NCBI GenBank assembly: GCA_030683815.1
Contig: JAUXPJ010000005.1
Span: 1-64,000 of the forward strand
Source: Flavobacteriaceae bacterium
Lineage (GTDB): Bacteria > Bacteroidota > Bacteroidia > Flavobacteriales > Flavobacteriaceae
Length of the DNA stretch: 64,000 bases
Reading direction: 5' to 3'
Position numbers and translations under genes: made by a program. Below the pieces are notes generated by a model. The model had not been told where the DNA came from. It searched no databases and saw nothing but the letters and a program-made list of their open reading frames with translations. Of this stretch, positions 1 to 10,713 are shown piece by piece (position 1 is the first letter of the stretch; the number at the start of each line of letters is the position of its first letter).

Positions 1-6
1 ACAAAT

Positions 7-636
7 TTAACATCCTCCTTCTTCAACTTCAACTTTTACTTTTTTTACAGGAGTCACTTTTTTTATTGCTGTTTTAAGTGGCTCTATTGTTACCGGCTCC
101 ATTTTAACTTCATTACTTTTCTTAATATATGCGGCAATATCATATTTAAGCATTTCAGCGCTAAAAGGAATTATATCAAATTGATTATTGTTAAAAGTTG
201 TTCTAGCATTTAATATTTTTACATTTTTAAAACCTAATTTGCTTAGTAAACACCAACAACCACTCGCTCCTTGTCTAGTATGACTATATATTACTATTGT
301 TTTTCCTTCACTTTCAATCTTTCTCAATAGTTTAATAGTTGTATTATCTGGAAGTGTTGGGGCAAAAATATTTAATGCGCCTTCTAAATGACCGTTTTCA
401 AAATCGAAAGCACTTCTTAGATCAACTAAAACATAGGTGTTTAAAGGATCTTTTAAGTTGATATTTTCAATTTCGAAAAGGTAATCATCAGTTAATAGTT
501 TTTCATGAACTTCAGTTGATGATTTCTTAAATTTGGCAGACTTAAAATCTATATTTGAAAGCCCTTCTATTGCTACTGCTAAAATTGAAAGTAATAGAAC
601 GCTGGTAATTAATTTTGAAATATTTATTTTATTCAT
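7..636 (-). CDS. Exported rhodanese-fold protein with C-terminal GGC tail (A)
   Basis: Last gene of the molybdoenzyme operon. From the ATG at 636 it has 209 residues; a TTG three codons upstream also opens the frame but is less likely. Residues 7-25 are a hydrophobic signal peptide or anchor. A rhodanese fold follows, with the family's DLRS motif at 72-75 and the active-site loop at about 117-126. The residue where rhodaneses carry catalytic Cys is Ser118 (IYSHTRQGASG). Two cysteines (CWC, 127-129) sit just after the loop. The C-terminus is a Lys/Val/Glu-rich linker ending in EEGGC, identical over the last 13 residues' worth of tail to the neighbouring paralogue. Classical thiosulfate sulfurtransferase activity is therefore doubtful; a periplasmic sulfur-carrier role through the terminal Cys is inference. 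Confidence 0.8.
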   Translation of the reverse strand: MNKINISKLITSVLLLSILAVAIEGLSNIDFKSAKFKKSSTEVHEKLLTDDYLFEIENINLKDPLNTYVLVDLRSAFDFENGHLEGALNIFAPTLPDNTTIKLLRKIESEGKTIVIYSHTRQGASGCWCLLSKLGFKNVKILNARTTFNNNQFDIIPFSAEMLKYDIAAYIKKSNEVKMEPVTIEPLKTAIKKVTPVKKVKVEVEEGGC

Positions 637-669
637 AATTTTCAATTTTATGGATTAGTCGATAAATGG

Positions 670-1314
670 TTAACATCCTCCTTCTTCAACTTCAACTTTT
701 ACTTTTTTAACGGGTGTTACTGTAGTAGTAGGGGCAGATTTCACGACAGCTTCTTTTATTTCTATTTTGGCTGGAGTGGCATCATAAGGTACCCCAAAAA
801 AGATTCCGGCTGCTTTTCTGAAAGTATAACGCTCAAAATCTTCTTGAGGCATACCTTCCGACGGTATAACAGGATTTAAAATAGTTTCGTAAAAACCATT
901 TAATCCTTCTTTGAGGACGATTAAATTTTTATATCCATTACTGTTTGTTAAAAACCATGCTTGATCAGCTAATAAATGATCATTTGAATAGAATATTAAT
1001 GAAACTCTATCTTGGTTTATAATTGATTCATTTTCTTCATTTAATAAGGTTTCAAAAGGAATATTGATAGCTGATGGAATGTGATACTTATCAAATTCAG
1101 CTTTACTTCTAAGGTCTATCAAAAGTATAGAAGGATCTTTATTTACAAGTTTTTCTGCCAATTCATCAGCATTGATGTAACGTTCGGTACTCATAAATTC
1201 AGCCATTAGTTTTGAAGGTGATTTTTCATCACTTTTGATAATCTTTGGACCAAAAAATACTACAAAACTTAAAATTAATAGGCTGCTAAATAATATGGTG
1301 TTTTTATGTTTCAT
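670..1314 (-). CDS. Exported rhodanese-fold protein with C-terminal GGC tail (B)
   Basis: 214 residues, 33 bp upstream of its paralogue and 14 bp downstream of the NrfD-like gene, so it belongs to the same transcript. Residues 6-23 form a signal peptide or membrane anchor. The rhodanese domain spans about 45-150, with DLRS at 67-70. The active-site position is Ser110 (IFYSNDHL) instead of Cys. The only cysteine in the whole protein is the last residue, Cys214, at the end of a flexible Lys/Val/Glu tail (VKVEVEEGGC). The domain is much less similar to protein A than the tail is. Sulfurtransferase chemistry, if any, must use the terminal Cys; this is inferred from sequence only. Confidence 0.8.
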   Translation of the reverse strand: MKHKNTILFSSLLILSFVVFFGPKIIKSDEKSPSKLMAEFMSTERYINADELAEKLVNKDPSILLIDLRSKAEFDKYHIPSAINIPFETLLNEENESIINQDRVSLIFYSNDHLLADQAWFLTNSNGYKNLIVLKEGLNGFYETILNPVIPSEGMPQEDFERYTFRKAAGIFFGVPYDATPAKIEIKEAVVKSAPTTTVTPVKKVKVEVEEGGC

Positions 1315-1328
1315 GACTTTATATGTTA

Positions 1329-2270
1329 TTAATACAGATATCTCGTTATTTGGCCGGCCTCGACCATTACAAATCTAAAAATCAAACCTCCTATTAATAT
1401 TAAGACAGCGGGAATTACAATGGGAATTTTATATCCCAATACTTCTAAAAATTCTAATAATAAAGGAATAATTAAACCTAATATTACAACAAAACCAAAA
1501 AAGACAATCGTAAATTCTCCGCCAACAAGCAACTGCATTGCCTCTAATTGTACTTGAGAACCCGCATATAATCCCATAAACATATGTGTAATCAACCCTA
1601 ATTCAATAATGATTAAACCAATATCAATTTTATTGAGCAAGTGTCTTTCAAAGTGATTTTTAGAAATTAAAATAATAGCAGCTACTCCTGTAGATAATCC
1701 TGAAGTTAGAAATAATGGGCCTAAAATAGCATTATTCCAGAGAGGTCTTGCATTAAAAGCAGATAATAAAATTCCAGTATAAACTCCGAGTATAATTGAG
1801 AGTGGAATTAAAGCAAGCGCCATATTGAGTCTATTTTTTATTAAAATGTGTTGAAATTTCTTTAAAAAATCAAATTTCAAATCCCACTTTGGAAATAATT
1901 CATCAAAATAACTCAAAACCCAAAATATAGATATTGGAGTAATTAATAATAATACCCATGCACCCCACGACATTGGTGATTCAATTCTAATTGTAGTATA
2001 CAATTTCCAAAAATAGATTTTGTGTGTGAGGTCATAAAATAATGCTATTAAGCCAATTATTAAAGCAATTGGAGCTACAATAGAGGCAAATTTCACTGTT
2101 GCAGGCATCTCTTTTTCTTTGCCTAGCAAATAGAATAGTGCTGTAAAAAAGAGTAATCCGGCTGCTAAACCTCCTAAAAATAAGTAAACAGAAATTGGCC
2201 AATGCCAAATATGCAGTATTGGATCTATGTTTGGTATATTTCTTCCGCTAATAAATAATTCTTCTTTCAT
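1329..2270 (-). CDS. NrfD/PsrC-like menaquinol-interacting membrane subunit
   Basis: 313 residues with about eight transmembrane helices, matching the NrfD/PsrC family (Psr subunits are usually around 250-340 residues). These proteins anchor a periplasmic molybdoenzyme and exchange electrons with the quinone pool. Charged or polar residues within helices (WHWP near 21-25, GEF at about 253) resemble the quinone-site region of PsrC, but I cannot assign exact residues. It follows the ferredoxin subunit by 104 bp. The gap shows no obvious terminator, so one operon is likely. The family also occurs in alternative complex III and sulfite dehydrogenase; the partner subunits here favour the Psr/Phs type. 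Confidence 0.85.
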   Translation of the reverse strand: MKEELFISGRNIPNIDPILHIWHWPISVYLFLGGLAAGLLFFTALFYLLGKEKEMPATVKFASIVAPIALIIGLIALFYDLTHKIYFWKLYTTIRIESPMSWGAWVLLLITPISIFWVLSYFDELFPKWDLKFDFLKKFQHILIKNRLNMALALIPLSIILGVYTGILLSAFNARPLWNNAILGPLFLTSGLSTGVAAIILISKNHFERHLLNKIDIGLIIIELGLITHMFMGLYAGSQVQLEAMQLLVGGEFTIVFFGFVVILGLIIPLLLEFLEVLGYKIPIVIPAVLILIGGLIFRFVMVEAGQITRYLY

Positions 2271-2374: not shown

Positions 2375-2908
2375 TTAAATTAAGTAATAAACTTGAGGTT
2401 TTGTGCCAGCTTCGGGTGCCAATGTTTTGTATCTTCTTTTTCCTAATAATTGACTTACTTCACTATGACTATTATCAAGATCACCAAAATACATACATTT
2501 AGTTGGGCACACCGAAACACAAGCTGGCAACTTACCTTTGCTCACTCTATGGTAGCAAAAAGTACATTTATCTATATATCCTCTCGGATGTTGGAAACGC
2601 GCATCATAAGGACACGATTCTATACAAGCGCCACAACCAATACATTCATTGTGCGTCACTAGAACAGTTCCGCCATCAACGATATGACTGGCACCTGTTG
2701 GACAGCACCGAACGCAAGGTGCATTTGAACAATGGTTACAGCGTTCAGATCTCAATTCTAATTCAATAGAAGGGTATGTCCCATTTACAGTTTCTATTAT
2801 CCAATCTCTACAATAACCGATAGGTACGTCATTTTCAGTTTGGCAAGCAACCACACAGTCGCTGCATCCTACACACTTTTTAGTGTCAATTACCATTGCT
2901 AGTTTCAT
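2375..2908 (-). CDS. Ferredoxin subunit (PsrB/PhsB type) with four [4Fe-4S] motifs
   Basis: 177 residues of DMSO-reductase-family iron-sulfur subunit. Four cysteine clusters are visible: CVGCSDCVVAC near the N-terminus, CNHCSNAPCVRCCP at about 57-71, CIGCGACIESCP at about 89-100, and CTFCYHRVSKGKLPAC with CVSVCP after it. This is the standard arrangement for four [4Fe-4S] clusters passing electrons between the NrfD subunit and the molybdopterin subunit. It has no signal peptide of its own, as expected for a subunit co-exported with a Tat-signalled partner. The start lies 2 bp after the stop of the catalytic-subunit gene, implying translational coupling. Confidence 0.9.
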   Translation of the reverse strand: MKLAMVIDTKKCVGCSDCVVACQTENDVPIGYCRDWIIETVNGTYPSIELELRSERCNHCSNAPCVRCCPTGASHIVDGGTVLVTHNECIGCGACIESCPYDARFQHPRGYIDKCTFCYHRVSKGKLPACVSVCPTKCMYFGDLDNSHSEVSQLLGKRRYKTLAPEAGTKPQVYYLI

Positions 2909-2910
2909 AT

Positions 2911-5148
2911 CTAAGCTATATTATATGGATTTTCAGTTAAAAAAGTAACAGAGTTACCGCGCATTCCGGTTCCTCCCATTAATGGGTCTATACTTACAGA
3001 AGTAATAAGTTGTGTGTCACAAGCTCCTTTTCCGTGTGCATTGGTTAGTTTTTGATTATCGTGACCAAAACCATGAACCATATAAACAGAATCAAAACGA
3101 ATCCGCTCAGTGACTCTTACTTTTATCGGGAAAGATGAGATAATACCATCCTGATTTTTAAGCCAAACATATTGATCAGCTTTTAATACTTCTATTTTTG
3201 CTACTTTCGGATTGACCCAAACCGTATTTTCATCCATCAAATCATTTAAATTAGGATTGTTGGCTGTTCGGCTAAAAGTATGCATCGGAGCTCTTCCATA
3301 ATTTAATCGGTAATATCCTTTTTCCGGTTCCGGATGAGGTGTATAAACTGGCATAGGCGGTTGTCCGATGGCTGCTAATTCTTCTGAATAGAATTCAATT
3401 TTTCCACTTTTGGTAGGGAAATTAAAATCTAAATCATCATTCATAAATAAAGATCCCGTTTTTCTCGGATAGTTTTTAACGCCAAGTTTTTGCATTTCTT
3501 CTAATGAAGTGCCCACTTGTTTAAACTGCCAATCGAGTACTTCGGTATAATCATTGTAATTGAAATAATCATGCAATCCCAATTTTTCGCCTAATTGTTT
3601 AGCCATCCACCAAGCTGGTTTTGAATCATATAATGGTCTAATTGCCGGAGCTCTTAAAGCAATGGATGGTTCTCTATTGGCGGATGACCGAATGGAACCC
3701 CATCGTTCTAAATAAGTACATTCCGGTAATACAACATCAGCATAACCGGTTACTTCCATTGGCATAGTATCTACCACTATCATAAATTCCAAAGAATCAA
3801 TAGCTTTTAGTAATAAATTTTTATTTGGAATGGAAACAGGAAGATTACAAGCTGCAACAATCCACGCCTTTACCGGATATTCTACATCATCGGCAGGTAT
3901 TGAAGAACGAATTACTTCATTAGTTATACCCATTTCAGCATAAGGATATCTGCTCGATAATTCTTTCCATGTCCATTTTGGCTTTGGATATGGAGGTTGT
4001 GGAAAATCAGGTACTTTCAATGCTTCTTTGAAGTAGAATCCGCCGCGTCTTCCCCAAGATCCTAATAATCCATTTAAGATAGCTATGGCTCTAGAACGTT
4101 GAGAATCATCACCGTACCAAGTTACGTGCCTGCCCGGATGCACAATTACCGCTGGTGCAGCATCTGCCATTTCTCTGGCGGTTTTTCTGATGACATCTGG
4201 TTCAATAGTTGTAATTCCGTAAGCCCATTCCGGAGTAAAAGTTCTGACATGTTCTTTAAGTTGATCAAATCCTAATCCGAATTTTTCAACATATTCTTTA
4301 TCGTATAAATTTTCATAGATTAAAACGTGCATCCATGAAAGTAAAAGTGCGATATCGGTTGATGGTTTGATGGGTAACCAATATTTTGATTTACTTGCGA
4401 CTGTTGATAATCGTGGATCTACTGTAATAAAAGTAGCACCTCTATCAATAGCATCAGCCATTTCTTGTACCTGAGTATTATGCATATTTTCTCCAAGATG
4501 AGAACCAATAAGCACTAAGCACTTAGAATCTCTAATGTCTGTAGGTTCTGGCGATCCAACCCAAGATCCCATGGTTAATTTGAATCCAACTTCTCTTGGG
4601 CCTCTACACTGCGCAAAAGCGGGTTCTGCAACAGTTTCAGAACCAAATGCTTTTAACAGATGTTCAAAATGACCACCGGGTTCTCCATGTTTTATCAATG
4701 CGATACTTTCAGCTCCGTGTTTTTCTTTCACAGCTTGCATTTTTGAAGCGACTAATGTAAGCGCTTCTTCCCAAGATGCTTCTCTAAACGTTTCTTTACC
4801 GTTAACGATATCGCGAATTAGTGGCGTTTTTAGTCTGTCAGGATCTGTGTACATTCCAACGCCACCGGTACCTCTCGGACAAAGCCGTCCGTAACATTGG
4901 AAATCATTGTCATTTCCAATTATTTTTTTAACATTATTATTTTCATCAGAATATATCCAACCGGCGCATTTCCAAAAACATACCTCGCAATAAGTGGCAG
5001 TTTTCCTGTAATTTTCGAGCACTTTGGAATAAACTAACTCATCTAAATAAGTACTTTCGTCCAAAAAATTAAATACCGATGCTGAAACAGCAGCTCCACC
5101 TAATCCAAGTGCAGAAATCTTAATAAATTTTCTTCTAGAGCTAACCAT
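2911..5148 (-). CDS. Tat-exported molybdopterin oxidoreductase, polysulfide/thiosulfate reductase type
   Basis: 745 residues, close to PsrA/PhsA size (about 760). The N-terminus carries a twin-arginine signal (SRRKFIK, residues 4-10, then a hydrophobic stretch), so it is exported folded. Cys54, Cys57, Cys61 and Cys90 (CEVC, C, LCPRG) bind the proximal [4Fe-4S] cluster. Cys181 in FAQCRGPRE is the likely molybdenum ligand, as in the Psr/Phs and arsenate groups rather than Ser (DMSO reductase) or Sec/Cys formate dehydrogenases. A C-terminal molydopterin-dinucleotide-binding domain follows. First gene of a five-gene operon that ends in two rhodanese-fold proteins, which supports a sulfur compound as substrate. 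The exact substrate (polysulfide, thiosulfate, tetrathionate) and direction cannot be read from sequence. Confidence 0.85.
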   Translation of the reverse strand: MVSSRRKFIKISALGLGGAAVSASVFNFLDESTYLDELVYSKVLENYRKTATYCEVCFWKCAGWIYSDENNNVKKIIGNDNDFQCYGRLCPRGTGGVGMYTDPDRLKTPLIRDIVNGKETFREASWEEALTLVASKMQAVKEKHGAESIALIKHGEPGGHFEHLLKAFGSETVAEPAFAQCRGPREVGFKLTMGSWVGSPEPTDIRDSKCLVLIGSHLGENMHNTQVQEMADAIDRGATFITVDPRLSTVASKSKYWLPIKPSTDIALLLSWMHVLIYENLYDKEYVEKFGLGFDQLKEHVRTFTPEWAYGITTIEPDVIRKTAREMADAAPAVIVHPGRHVTWYGDDSQRSRAIAILNGLLGSWGRRGGFYFKEALKVPDFPQPPYPKPKWTWKELSSRYPYAEMGITNEVIRSSIPADDVEYPVKAWIVAACNLPVSIPNKNLLLKAIDSLEFMIVVDTMPMEVTGYADVVLPECTYLERWGSIRSSANREPSIALRAPAIRPLYDSKPAWWMAKQLGEKLGLHDYFNYNDYTEVLDWQFKQVGTSLEEMQKLGVKNYPRKTGSLFMNDDLDFNFPTKSGKIEFYSEELAAIGQPPMPVYTPHPEPEKGYYRLNYGRAPMHTFSRTANNPNLNDLMDENTVWVNPKVAKIEVLKADQYVWLKNQDGIISSFPIKVRVTERIRFDSVYMVHGFGHDNQKLTNAHGKGACDTQLITSVSIDPLMGGTGMRGNSVTFLTENPYNIA

Positions 5149-5366: not shown

Positions 5367-7265
5367 ATGAAGAGTTTTTTTAAAATATACAGCGAGAACA
5401 TCGTCTTATTATTGATTCTTTTTATTACTTTTTTAGTATATGTCTATGTTAATATTTCTGATTTTAAACTTATTATAAACAAAGCGGTTGGCTCCTCTTT
5501 TTTATCGAAGAATAAACTAAATGAATCTTGTTTGGATTGTCATCAGCAATTTGAAGGATTTTCTGATTATCATCATCCTAAATTAATTGGTTGTACCGGT
5601 TGTCATTTGGGTAATAAACATCAGCAGGAAAAAGAAAAAGCGCATCACGGAATGGTTTTAATTCCGGGTAATTTAAAAGATGCTAAAAATACCTGTGGTA
5701 AATGTCATAAAGATCAACTGTCTAAAATTGAATCTTCATTGATGACTACCAACAGCGGATTGGTTGCCGTCAATAAATTTGTTTTTGGTGAAGCCGGAAC
5801 TCCCAATGATAGCTACCATATTAATAATATCAATTTTACACCTGCCGAAAAACATCTGCGCGATTTATGCGCCAATTGTCATTTAGGAACTGAAAAGAAA
5901 GATTTAGGTCCAATCCATCAAAAAAGTAGAGGCGGCGGTTGCAATGCCTGTCATTTAAATTACACCCGGAAAAGTGCCGATGAATTACAAGTTTATCAAT
6001 CATCCAACAAGAAAAAATTACCCAAAACACATCCCGAAGTCAATTTGCAAATTAAGAATGAGCATTGTTTTGGCTGTCACAGTCGTTCCAGCAGAATTGC
6101 CACCAGCTATGAAGGTTGGTCAGAAACCTTGTTAAAACAACATGAAGTCATCCATAAAAAGGATTTTAGAATTTTAGAAGATCAGCGCGTTTTTGCAAAA
6201 CAATCACCCGATGTTCATCACCAAAAAGGGATGTTGTGTATAGATTGTCACAGTTCGCATGAAGTAATGGGCGATGGAAAAACCTATATTCATCAAGAAG
6301 ATGCCGTTTCTGTGCAATGTACAGATTGTCATTTTACAGATTTACCCAAAACCATCACTATCAATCAATTGGATGCAGAATCGGCTAAAATTGCCGCCTT
6401 GCGAAAGTATGATTTAAAAGATAAGAAAATAGTGGTGAAATCAAAATCAGGGCAAGCATTGATCAATACTTATTTGGATGAAAAAAATAAACCATTTATG
6501 ATTTCAAAAAGTGATGGCAAAATTCATCCATTGACCAAGCCGGCATCAAGTTGTATAAAAGACAAAGCACATTCCAATTTAAGTTGTTCCGGTTGTCATA
6601 CTTCTTGGGCATCAAAATGTATTGGTTGTCACAATCAATATGATAAAAATGATCAAATGGGATTTGATTTATTGGATCAAAAATATGTAAAAGGACAATG
6701 GGTTGAGTATGTACATGAATTTTCAGTTTCAGAACCTTCTTTGGGAGTTCGGGTAATTAATGGTAAAAAAGAAATAAAACCTGCTGTTCCGGGTATGATT
6801 ATGACGATTGATAAAGGAAGTTATCAAAATAAACCGGGAACGGAAGTTGTTTTTCATCGGTTATTTGCGCCCAATGCGCCTCATACCATCAGTAAAAATG
6901 GCAGGAGCTGTGTTTCTTGTCATTTAAATCCGTATGTGTTGGGTTATGGTTCTGGAAAATTAGTTCTCAATAAAAAAGGGAAATTTCAGTTACAAAACAG
7001 TTATGCTTTAAATGAGTTCGATCAATTGCCGGAAGACGCCTGGATTCCGTTTTTATCCAATTTAGACAGCAAGAAAACCTATTCAACCCGAACAAATTTT
7101 AGACCTTTTAATTTATCCGAACAACAAAATATCTTAAAAGTAGGCGCTTGTTTAACTTGTCATCAACCGGATGATAAAACCATGAAACAAAGTTTAACAG
7201 TTGGAATTGATGCTTTGATGCTGAAAAAATCTAACTATTGTATCATCCCAAATTTTAAAAAATAA
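5367..7265 (+). CDS. Membrane-anchored 12-haem cytochrome c
   Basis: 632 residues. An N-terminal hydrophobic helix (about 11-30) anchors or exports it. Twelve CXXCH haem-attachment motifs are countable: CLDCH (55), CTGCH (76), then CGKCH, CANCH, CNACH, CFGCH, CIDCH, CTDCH, CSGCH, CIGCH, CVSCH and CLTCH near the C-terminus. A motif-poor stretch separates the ninth/tenth and the eleventh. Many extra histidines could be distal ligands. It is transcribed divergently from the Psr-like operon, so it may carry electrons to or from that enzyme, or be an independent periplasmic/surface electron conduit. I do not recognise it as OmcA, MtrA, NrfA, Hao or ActA, and treat it as an unassigned multihaem protein. 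Confidence 0.85.
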   Translation: MKSFFKIYSENIVLLLILFITFLVYVYVNISDFKLIINKAVGSSFLSKNKLNESCLDCHQQFEGFSDYHHPKLIGCTGCHLGNKHQQEKEKAHHGMVLIPGNLKDAKNTCGKCHKDQLSKIESSLMTTNSGLVAVNKFVFGEAGTPNDSYHINNINFTPAEKHLRDLCANCHLGTEKKDLGPIHQKSRGGGCNACHLNYTRKSADELQVYQSSNKKKLPKTHPEVNLQIKNEHCFGCHSRSSRIATSYEGWSETLLKQHEVIHKKDFRILEDQRVFAKQSPDVHHQKGMLCIDCHSSHEVMGDGKTYIHQEDAVSVQCTDCHFTDLPKTITINQLDAESAKIAALRKYDLKDKKIVVKSKSGQALINTYLDEKNKPFMISKSDGKIHPLTKPASSCIKDKAHSNLSCSGCHTSWASKCIGCHNQYDKNDQMGFDLLDQKYVKGQWVEYVHEFSVSEPSLGVRVINGKKEIKPAVPGMIMTIDKGSYQNKPGTEVVFHRLFAPNAPHTISKNGRSCVSCHLNPYVLGYGSGKLVLNKKGKFQLQNSYALNEFDQLPEDAWIPFLSNLDSKKTYSTRTNFRPFNLSEQQNILKVGACLTCHQPDDKTMKQSLTVGIDALMLKKSNYCIIPNFKK

Positions 7266-8956: not shown

Positions 8957-9874
8957 CTACACAATAATAATTCTTTCAGCTTGATGGGTTGTTGTTTTTT
9001 GTGGCTCTAAATAAAAATCGATTCTTCCCATATTAATTCCAGACCAGCCTACCTGGTTTACCAGCACATTTTTATTATCTAAATTTTTAACAAGCGTTGG
9101 TTTTGGCAAGAAAGTATGGGTATGTCCGCCAATAATTAAATCGATATTCTTGGTTTTTGCAGCTAAATTTAAGTCAGAAATGGTTTCTGGAGTCGCTTTA
9201 TAATAGTATCCAAGATGAGAAAGGCAAATAATCAAATCGCATTTTTCCTCATTTTTGAGGATTCGGGTCATATCTTGAGCAGTTTCTAACGGATCGAGAT
9301 AAACGGTTTCTTTGTACATTTTTTTATCAACCAAACCTTCCAATTTAACCCCTAAACCAAAAACGCCAATTTTTACGCCATCCATTTTAAAAACTTTATA
9401 CGGTTTCACAAATGAATTTAAAACGGTATTTGAAAAGTCATAATTGGCAGAAAGTAAATCAAATTGGGCATTGGGAATCTGTTTTAACAATCCGTCAATA
9501 CCATTATCAAACTCATGATTTCCGATGGTTGCGGCATTGTATTGCATCATATTCATCAGTTTAAATTCCAATTCACCTCCAAAATAATTAAAATAAGGCG
9601 TTCCCTGAAACATATCGCCGGCATCTAACAATAATAAATTCGGATTTTCATTTCTCACCGAATTGATATAAGCGGCTCTTTTGGCAGCGCCACCCAAATT
9701 TGGATATCGTGGATGATTGGCATTAAAAGCATCAATATGACTGTGAACATCGTTGGTATGTAAAATGGTGATATGTCTTTTCTGATTTTTTTCTGATGCC
9801 AATAAGGCTAAATCGCTCATCGTTAATAAAGCGGTTGCAGCAGTAGTTTTGGTAATAAAATCGCGTCTTTTCAT
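8957..9874 (-). CDS. Tat-exported 5'-nucleotidase, catalytic half
   Basis: From the ATG at 9874 (a TTG at 9898 would place extra residues before the signal) the protein has 305 residues. MKRRDFITKT and a hydrophobic run form a twin-arginine signal. The UshA-type metallophosphatase domain shows the dimetal motifs HTNDVHSH, DAGDMFQG, GNHEFDNG and GGHTHTF. Full UshA enzymes (about 550 residues) carry a C-terminal substrate-binding domain. Here that domain is a separate gene 92 bp upstream, so the enzyme is split. It probably hydrolyses nucleotides or UDP-sugars outside the inner membrane. Confidence 0.85.
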   Translation of the reverse strand: MKRRDFITKTTAATALLTMSDLALLASEKNQKRHITILHTNDVHSHIDAFNANHPRYPNLGGAAKRAAYINSVRNENPNLLLLDAGDMFQGTPYFNYFGGELEFKLMNMMQYNAATIGNHEFDNGIDGLLKQIPNAQFDLLSANYDFSNTVLNSFVKPYKVFKMDGVKIGVFGLGVKLEGLVDKKMYKETVYLDPLETAQDMTRILKNEEKCDLIICLSHLGYYYKATPETISDLNLAAKTKNIDLIIGGHTHTFLPKPTLVKNLDNKNVLVNQVGWSGINMGRIDFYLEPQKTTTHQAERIIIV

Positions 9875-9966
9875 GTGCTGGTATATATTATAATTCAATG
9901 GTCACATGGAACTCGCTTATAATAATTCTCTTATGTAAGAAACTATTATCAAACTCGTTTCATTTT

Positions 9967-10713
9967 CTATTCAGTTTTTATACGACCGTCTAATTGTGTT
10001 TGAATACTTTTTGTTTTTGAAAAATAATCGATGATGGCATTTCTAACCTTATAATCGATATCGGTAATTTGAATCGGATTTTTAAAGAAATTCATATTAT
10101 CGCCGCCTCCTTGTAAATAATCGGAAGTTAAAACATAGTAGGTTTTATTTTTATCAAATGATAAATTGTTGATATTTAACTGATAATCATTTTTTCTGAT
10201 CAAAAGATTGAATTGTTTTGAAACCGGATGTGCTTTTTTTTCAAGAATCAGAAATTGAACCATTTCAGCAATTTTATTACCTGTCATTTCAACCACTGCC
10301 AAAGTATTTTCAAAAGGCATCATTTCAAAAGCATGACCAACCGTAATATTTCCTTGTTGGATATCAGATCTTAAACCGCCATTGTTAAACAGCGCAAAAT
10401 CAATTGTTTTCCCCGTTCTTGCCAAAAAAACCGGATTTGCTTGTTCGTAGCACATATCGGCCATCAAATTACCCAAAGAACTTTCTAAATTTCCATCTTT
10501 TCGACTAATAGTTGTGGGAGTATGAGAAAGTACGGTATTGATTTCTTTTTCCATTTTTTCTCTGTACGGAGCAATTTCTTGCTCTAAAGCGGTTACCGGA
10601 GTTTGATTTTTAATTTCGGTTAAACTCGCTTCAACTTTAGCAACATAAAGTTTTTGCTCTTTACACGAGAAAACTAAAAATAAAGTTAAAAATATAAGAA
10701 TGTATTTTTTCAT
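9967..10713 (-). CDS. 5'-nucleotidase C-terminal domain lipoprotein
   Basis: 248 residues: a lipoprotein signal with lipobox VFSC (Cys17), a short linker, and the 5'-nucleotidase C-terminal domain that binds the nucleotide base in UshA (FNNGGLRSDIQQGNIT, MPFENTLAVVEMTG, TSDYLQGGGDNM). It lacks the metal-binding catalytic domain, which is the next gene downstream on the same strand. The pair probably forms one active enzyme, one half lipid-anchored and the other exported by Tat. Confidence 0.85.
   Translation of the reverse strand: MKKYILIFLTLFLVFSCKEQKLYVAKVEASLTEIKNQTPVTALEQEIAPYREKMEKEINTVLSHTPTTISRKDGNLESSLGNLMADMCYEQANPVFLARTGKTIDFALFNNGGLRSDIQQGNITVGHAFEMMPFENTLAVVEMTGNKIAEMVQFLILEKKAHPVSKQFNLLIRKNDYQLNINNLSFDKNKTYYVLTSDYLQGGGDNMNFFKNPIQITDIDYKVRNAIIDYFSKTKSIQTQLDGRIKTE

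Follow-up and report, generated by a model that had tools for sequence, protein, structure and literature searches.

Cysteine-tailed rhodanese-fold proteins as candidate periplasmic sulfur carriers in a Flavobacteriaceae bacterium and its relatives

What can two adjacent rhodanese-fold proteins do if neither has the catalytic cysteine and both end in the same Gly-Gly-Cys? The question arises at the start of the window, by which we mean the whole 64,000-nucleotide stretch of DNA analyzed here; its first position is also the start of the contig (G000:C4). An initial annotation had proposed that the shared tail carries sulfur to or from a molybdoenzyme encoded upstream. We put a probability of roughly 0.6 on the reading that the two proteins, RhoA and RhoB, are periplasmic sulfur carriers in which a dead rhodanese scaffold bears a persulfide arm, and that in relatives this arm loads a YedE1E2 importer.

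Two rhodanese-fold proteins and their shared tail

The features of the locus are as follows:
7-636, minus strand: RhoA, predicted membrane-anchored rhodanese-fold protein, Ser at the catalytic position, ends EEGGC
10-54, minus strand: RhoA tail, TPVKKVKVEVEEGGC; Cys codon 10-12, stop codon 7-9; most of the tail has pLDDT below 50
670-1314, minus strand: RhoB, predicted membrane-anchored rhodanese-fold protein, Ser110 at the catalytic position, last residue its sole Cys
673-717, minus strand: RhoB tail, TPVKKVKVEVEEGGC; Cys codon 673-675, stop codon 670-672; pLDDT below 50 from residue 170
1329-2270, minus strand: NrfD-type membrane subunit (PF03916, 1.5e-51)
2375-2908, minus strand: 4Fe-4S subunit (family search)
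2911-5148, minus strand: Psr/Phs-like molybdoenzyme (PF00384, 2.8e-38), twin-arginine-like start by eye
5367-7265, plus strand: divergent ExtM-like cytochrome with 12 CxxCH motifs (NF040943, 4.4e-75, below the curated cut-off)

Rhodanese is the only model above its cut-off in RhoA or RhoB (PF00581 of Pfam, 2.6e-14 and 5.2e-14, both above the gathering score). Structure models of the two proteins are of modest quality (mean pLDDT 60 and 66; shallow, 5 rows), and their best matches among solved rhodanese chains reach Z 9.6 over 102 residues for RhoA and 9.4 over 100 for RhoB. The fold-search matches shown were mostly rhodanese-type chains, and no function was taken from them. The mechanical open reading frame (ORF) of RhoA spans 7-645 with a TTG start, and orthologues align with the ATG three codons later, at 636; the catalytic position is Ser121 in the TTG count and Ser118 in the ATG count of the initial annotation. 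In the models this serine directly follows a strand (117-120 in RhoA, 105-109 in RhoB) and precedes the next helix, so that both proteins have Ser where an active rhodanese-type sulfurtransferase has its loop Cys. RhoA has two extra cysteines, Cys130 and Cys132, which its model places inside the following helix; they are not conserved, and in genome G028 RhoA has a single Cys, located at a neighbouring position. The annotated pair of rhodanese folds with Ser at the catalytic-Cys position and a common GGC end was borne out, as was the terminal Cys as the sole cysteine of RhoB. Each protein has one N-terminal hydrophobic segment, and relatives in family f2 have lipoprotein-like starts (by eye), from which we infer that RhoA and RhoB are exported, that is, periplasmic and membrane-tied.

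The identical C-termini belong to a strongly conserved pattern. An alignment of 21 RhoA and RhoB sequences, drawn from 11 genomes, leaves only D67, R69, K204 and GGC212-214 (RhoB numbering) invariant. Both proteins end in EGGC in all eight genomes of the window's family with both ends readable; RhoA of G002 runs off its contig. Two genomes of another family (G060 and G075) each encode three rhodaneses ending AVSGGCG. A scan of seven genomes for EGGC followed by TAA, which covered this spelling and stop codon alone, gave 14 matches, 13 of them within a rhodanese gene or a copy of the RhoA end. The other, the second match in G035, coincides with the end of no listed ORF on that strand and was taken as chance. 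One unexpected match (L058 1501-2064, G075:C101) is a lipoprotein-like single rhodanese that keeps its loop Cys and ends EEDEGGC, possibly an active, tailed form to judge by these features. The same stretch also encodes a double rhodanese and, by eye, an ExtI-like-looking protein.

The tails of RhoA and RhoB also match each other within genomes. Over 18 residues in the eight family genomes, mean identity is 0.86 within and 0.59 between genomes, and the observed sum of within-genome matches is reached by 4 of 40,320 pairings; the exceptions are two of the eight genomes, where another genome's RhoA tail is as near (G001, a tie) or nearer (G003) to the RhoB tail. A common docking partner would be the simplest explanation. 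Gene conversion was considered and disfavoured as the cause: shared residues often use different codons (codons are shared at 4 of 16 shared residues in G028 and 11 of 18 in G043), which argues for a shared partner over recent conversion and is compatible with an old one. In the window genome itself, where 12 of 16 shared residues also have the same codon, a recent conversion is possible.

Matched tails with one free thiol per arm would also suit disulfide formation, between RhoA and RhoB or with another protein, in which case the tails would act as a redox latch or sensor and carry no sulfur. We consider this quite improbable, since outside families f1 and f2 each retrieved YedE-linked locus has one tailed rhodanese, and those neighbouring genes that were recognised belong to sulfur or electron-transfer systems.

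YedE-linked relatives and the upstream enzymes

A tail-bearing profile gave matches in 76 of 395 sampled genomes of the phylum. This profile favours tailed proteins, and the gene for the YedE half-transporter, which has no tail, was therefore used as bait. The bait marked 66 places in 63 of the 395 genomes. All 66 were retrieved, and a downstream or fused rhodanese was recognised in 65 by a tail-free model, itself built from tailed relatives. At the 66th place (L201) an ORF ends in NEGC by eye and was not recognised by the rhodanese model. Two further loci (L163 and L165) were dropped, the YedE gene being absent from both retrieved stretches.

A cysteine lies within the last two residues of 64 of the 65 YedE-linked rhodaneses. 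The sole exception (L159) is an ORF interrupted by a frameshift, and another frame continues to KKKREGC; a homologue that keeps fold and operon and lacks the terminal Cys, which would have spoken against the carrier proposal, was therefore absent from the sample. By comparison, the same loci contain 964 other mechanical ORFs of 100 or more amino acids, some of which will not be genes, and 10 of these have a Cys in the last two residues. A second control gave 2 of 20 other rhodanese-type ORFs outside tailed operons; it began with 48 distinct ORFs outside the 65, of which 28 belong to tailed operons of families f1 and f2 or are their RhoC or RhoD. L208 entered in this control only, and the G029 and G059 stretches (L209, L210) were represented by the overlapping L019 and L021. 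The proteins at L019 748-1815 and L021 1387-2457 (355-356 amino acids) match the rhodanese model and end in CS without a GGC-type tail; as far as seen, they are not in tailed operons. A broader list contains 69 rhodanese ORFs near YedE, of which 64 have a Cys in the last three residues; the five without comprise four separate rhodaneses upstream of YedE and L159. All such counts overstate the number of events, because genomes of the same genus are not independent.

The catalytic position of the 65 proteins is occupied by Ala (24), Ser (23), Gly (15), Asp (1) or Cys (2), and no single domain column has Cys in more than 2 of 67. In sequence terms, the conserved thiol has, in effect, moved from the loop to the tail. 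A terminal Cys that is kept while the catalytic Cys is lost is expected of a carrier arm and supports that idea, and the loop Cys that would have argued against it is missing from 63 of the 65. Tail and dead loop are not strictly tied, because a loop Cys is present in the remaining two (L117 and L123) and in tailed rhodaneses outside the YedE set (L058 and the RhoC type of L050 and L051).

In 35 of the 65 loci a YedE half and the tailed rhodanese form one ORF, although L121 may be an overlap and not a true fusion. The fused half is the second YedE half; the first halves of these loci contain a GCTSG motif. The rhodanese part of the L160 fusion retains a hydrophobic segment of its own, preceded by several Lys though also followed by Lys and Arg, and a periplasmic location of that rhodanese domain is suggested. 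A third layout was observed at L130, L146, L148 and L162, where MGC-ending tailed rhodaneses follow both YedE halves; no molybdoenzyme or octaheme cytochrome was seen in these retrieved stretches, and L146, L148 and L162 have a further rhodanese ORF upstream of the YedE halves. If a YedE-coupled tailed rhodanese is defined by loss of the loop Cys, a Cys in the last two residues and linkage to YedE halves, RhoA and RhoB have the first two features, and the linkage occurs in relatives and not in the window's genus.

A short, strictly C-terminal GGC on several proteins per genome, with a basic stretch before it, could instead be an attachment or sorting signal for a lipid or covalent anchor and not a redox site. 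Such a signal is hard to reconcile with proteins whose hydrophobic anchor, or fusion to an integral membrane protein, already provides attachment, with the 13 of 14 EGGC-TAA matches that fall in rhodanese genes or RhoA-end copies, or with the range of ends among relatives (EGC, MGC, GGCG, GGCA, GGCS, GGCT, GLCS and FQC besides GGC); we regard it as very improbable.

The annotation of the upstream molybdoenzyme as Psr-like held up well. Its best solved match is 2vpw (E 5e-181, 606.6 bits; next best 162.2), named thiosulfate reductase by its depositors, which we take to be the Thermus polysulfide reductase, and it is closest to the A subunits of polysulfide and thiosulfate reductases. The NCBIfam PhsA model scores 459.3 bits, below the equivalog cut-off of 694, so the enzyme is Psr/Phs-like and its substrate is not fixed by this match.

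The enzyme encoded upstream varies among the 65 YedE-linked loci. Within the retrieved stretches it is a Psr-like molybdoenzyme in 24, an octaheme tetrathionate-reductase-type cytochrome in 35 and neither in six, one of which (L207) is a contig stub from a genome with a molybdoenzyme on another contig. Two of the octaheme cytochromes were checked against TIGR04315 and scored 579 and 570 bits (cut-off 375); a b-type cytochrome lies beside one of them. Conversely, the molybdoenzyme was found at E <= 1e-100 in 42 genomes. A tail is present in every one of the 27 genomes with the closest enzymes, recognised by rule or in the window in 25, by eye in G230 and across a frameshift in G386; 14 have a more distant type and belong to one genus (g136), and one is cut by a contig end. 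At the PsrABC-like loci of genus g136, nine of nine retrieved from the 14 genomes (L211-L219), there is no rhodanese-model match and no YedE nearby. The tail accompanies YedE, whose presence in all 65 loci follows from the selection, and the closest molybdoenzyme type; a molybdoenzyme by itself does not imply a tail. The expected co-occurrence of tail and molybdoenzyme held for the closest enzymes and failed at the nine retrieved g136 loci and, within the retrieved stretches, at all but 24 of the YedE-linked loci. The carrier arm of the original proposal gains support from the kept terminal Cys and lost catalytic Cys, and the molybdoenzyme drops out as its constant partner.

These data bear on the Sud-like reading of the initial annotation, in which the arms would serve the Psr-like molybdoenzyme, bringing it polysulfide sulfur or taking sulfur from it; YedE would then be a secondary passenger. 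It would account for the Psr-like enzyme in the window's operon, for both tails being kept in a genus without detectable YedE and for the tail in all 27 genomes with the closest molybdoenzymes. There is also a precedent for a metallopterin enzyme fed by a C-terminal Cys: in a desulfurase module, a Cys one residue from the C-terminus is essential for sulfur transfer to the metallopterin site, according to excerpts of PMC9516567. We nevertheless consider it unlikely, because an octaheme cytochrome takes the enzyme's place at 35 of 65 tailed loci and neither is present at six, because the fusions seen among these loci are with YedE and none is with a molybdoenzyme, and because no rhodanese lies near the more distant PsrABC-like genes at the nine of nine retrieved loci.

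The window's genus and the surroundings of the contig break

None of the window genus's four genomes, two of which are 87-88% complete, has a PF04143 transporter above the cut-off (best E 0.03). NrfD runs directly into RhoB in all four, and both tails are kept despite the lack of a detectable YedE, so their conservation in this genus is not due to a YedE transporter. The arm must serve something else there, which may be the Psr-like enzyme, RhoC or an importer not yet known; since no YedE was found, the molybdoenzyme and the active double rhodanese on contig C20 stay candidate partners.

Contig C20 ends in a copy of the RhoA end, and from there the gene order that is unbroken in G001 goes on with RhoC, next a double-rhodanese protein whose start is lipoprotein-like, and then an ExtI-like porin. 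RhoC (L039 14373-15383) has two loop Cys. In G000-G003 and G050 it ends in APGC plus one or two residues; this near-terminal Cys is absent in G028, G035 and G051. Some 2-4 kb further on C20 are genes for a type III SQR, a DsrC/TusE-family protein and a DsrE2-like protein. The SQR (L039 8651-9892) scores 644.7 with the NCBIfam selenoprotein subtype model (cut-off 525). The ExtI porin was tried as a marker of the system and set aside as unspecific, with matches in 58 of 198 genomes and none over the cut-off. Elsewhere in the window, adjacent ORFs at 8957-9898 and 9967-10713 resemble, by eye, a 5'-nucleotidase split into two halves.

Contigs break at the RhoA end, which is a repeated sequence. 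Window positions 1-141 are identical over 141 bases to G000:C21 1-141 (L040), and at least 135 identical bases are shared with the end of C20 (L039 15699-15834). C21 starts with a decayed RhoA-like copy that has broken frames and the same tail, and the tail recurs at its other end. Although RhoA ends at a contig break, its tail was accepted because the orthologues in L041 and L044 show it. These orthologues, the EGGC scan and the YedE-baited counts rule out the tail as a product of chance or assembly.

A putative persulfide arm and known sulfur carriers

We return to the sulfur-carrier reading, in which the N-terminal segment would tie RhoA and RhoB to the inner membrane and the rhodanese domain, having lost its catalytic Cys, would have given up chemistry and dock to partners. 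The Lys-rich arm of about 40 residues, predicted to be disordered, ends in GGC, and its terminal thiol would carry sulfane sulfur as a persulfide. The source of sulfur would differ with the operon, its periplasmic sulfur enzyme being a Psr-like molybdoenzyme, an active rhodanese or an octaheme tetrathionate-reductase-type cytochrome. The arm would then hand this sulfur over, in relatives most probably to the two-part YedE1/YedE2 importer that adjoins the tailed rhodanese or is fused to it; in the window's genus, where no YedE was found, transfer by the arms between the Psr-like enzyme and RhoC, the active double rhodanese, seems likeliest.

The direction is probably import, since YedE1E2 elsewhere speeds import and not export. 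In other bacteria YedE1E2 imports zero-valent sulfur and needs one Cys per half (both points from excerpts of PMC10812762). The SoxT work (PMC11582611, in part) points to this handover as an open step for SoxYZ as well; it describes a route for sulfur from SoxY's Cys into the Cys chain of SoxT as conceivable and doubts direct Cys-to-Cys transfer over about 7 A. A reactive residue at the GCTSG motif of the first YedE halves would fit, because a Sec form at GUxSG is listed for the YedE family in the portion of PMC13188914 used here. No SoxY match was obtained in the seven of seven genomes searched, so the arm may stand in for SoxY. Across the phylum, the chances seem to us evenly balanced that the rhodanese fold was turned from enzyme into carrier, with an arm that hands sulfur directly to the YedE1E2 Cys chain, replaces the role of SoxYZ and can be plugged onto a variety of periplasmic sulfur enzymes.

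How sulfur is imported into the cytoplasm is termed poorly understood in the abstract of PMC11582611. A carrier naturally fused to its importer, with one conserved thiol to mutate, would make the question directly testable, and the PsrABC-like loci of genus g136 offer a natural contrast for what tailed proteins add. The reading would give a function to rhodanese-type proteins that annotation would call enzymes despite the missing catalytic Cys, and a Cys-tailed rhodanese together with YedE halves would be a sequence mark for sulfur-importing members of the phylum.

Several known systems resemble parts of this arrangement. SoxY of SoxYZ is a periplasmic carrier with a C-terminal GGCGG arm; the tailed proteins, which are probably periplasmic too, likewise bear their Cys on a Gly-rich stretch at the C-terminus, short in SoxY. 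The tailed proteins differ in being rhodanese folds, probably membrane-tied, with a long Lys-rich arm; RhoA and RhoB do not have the SoxY domain PF13501, and none of the 65 relatives ends in GGCGG. Sud of Wolinella is a polysulfide-sulfur transferase that works with Psr and uses a loop Cys. It too is a periplasmic rhodanese-type protein beside a polysulfide reductase, whereas RhoA and RhoB lack the loop Cys and have their thiol on the tail. DsrC and TusE share with the tailed proteins a carrier Cys at the very C-terminus, and contig C20 of this genome encodes a DsrC-family protein, but their fold is unrelated to rhodanese and they are cytoplasmic. The Geobacter ext cluster, as described in the excerpt consulted, comprises the rhodanese-like ExtH, the porin ExtI and ExtM; ExtI- and ExtM-type matches occur in the same gene neighbourhood here, although both are below curated cut-offs.

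SoxY is also discussed as a donor to the YeeE-type transporter SoxT in the excerpted part of PMC11582611. The importers YedE1E2, PmpAB, TsuA and SoxT (PF04143) come closest to the arrangement in relatives, where the tailed rhodanese adjoins or is fused to YedE halves; the excerpted accounts of these importers mention no tailed rhodanese partner, and PF04143 was not found in the window's genus. No description of Cys-tailed rhodaneses beside or fused to YedE was recognised in the open-licence literature searched. Sulfur-carrier arms and YedE importers are already known; what appears new against that literature is a rhodanese without a loop thiol, with a tail thiol, fused to an importer.
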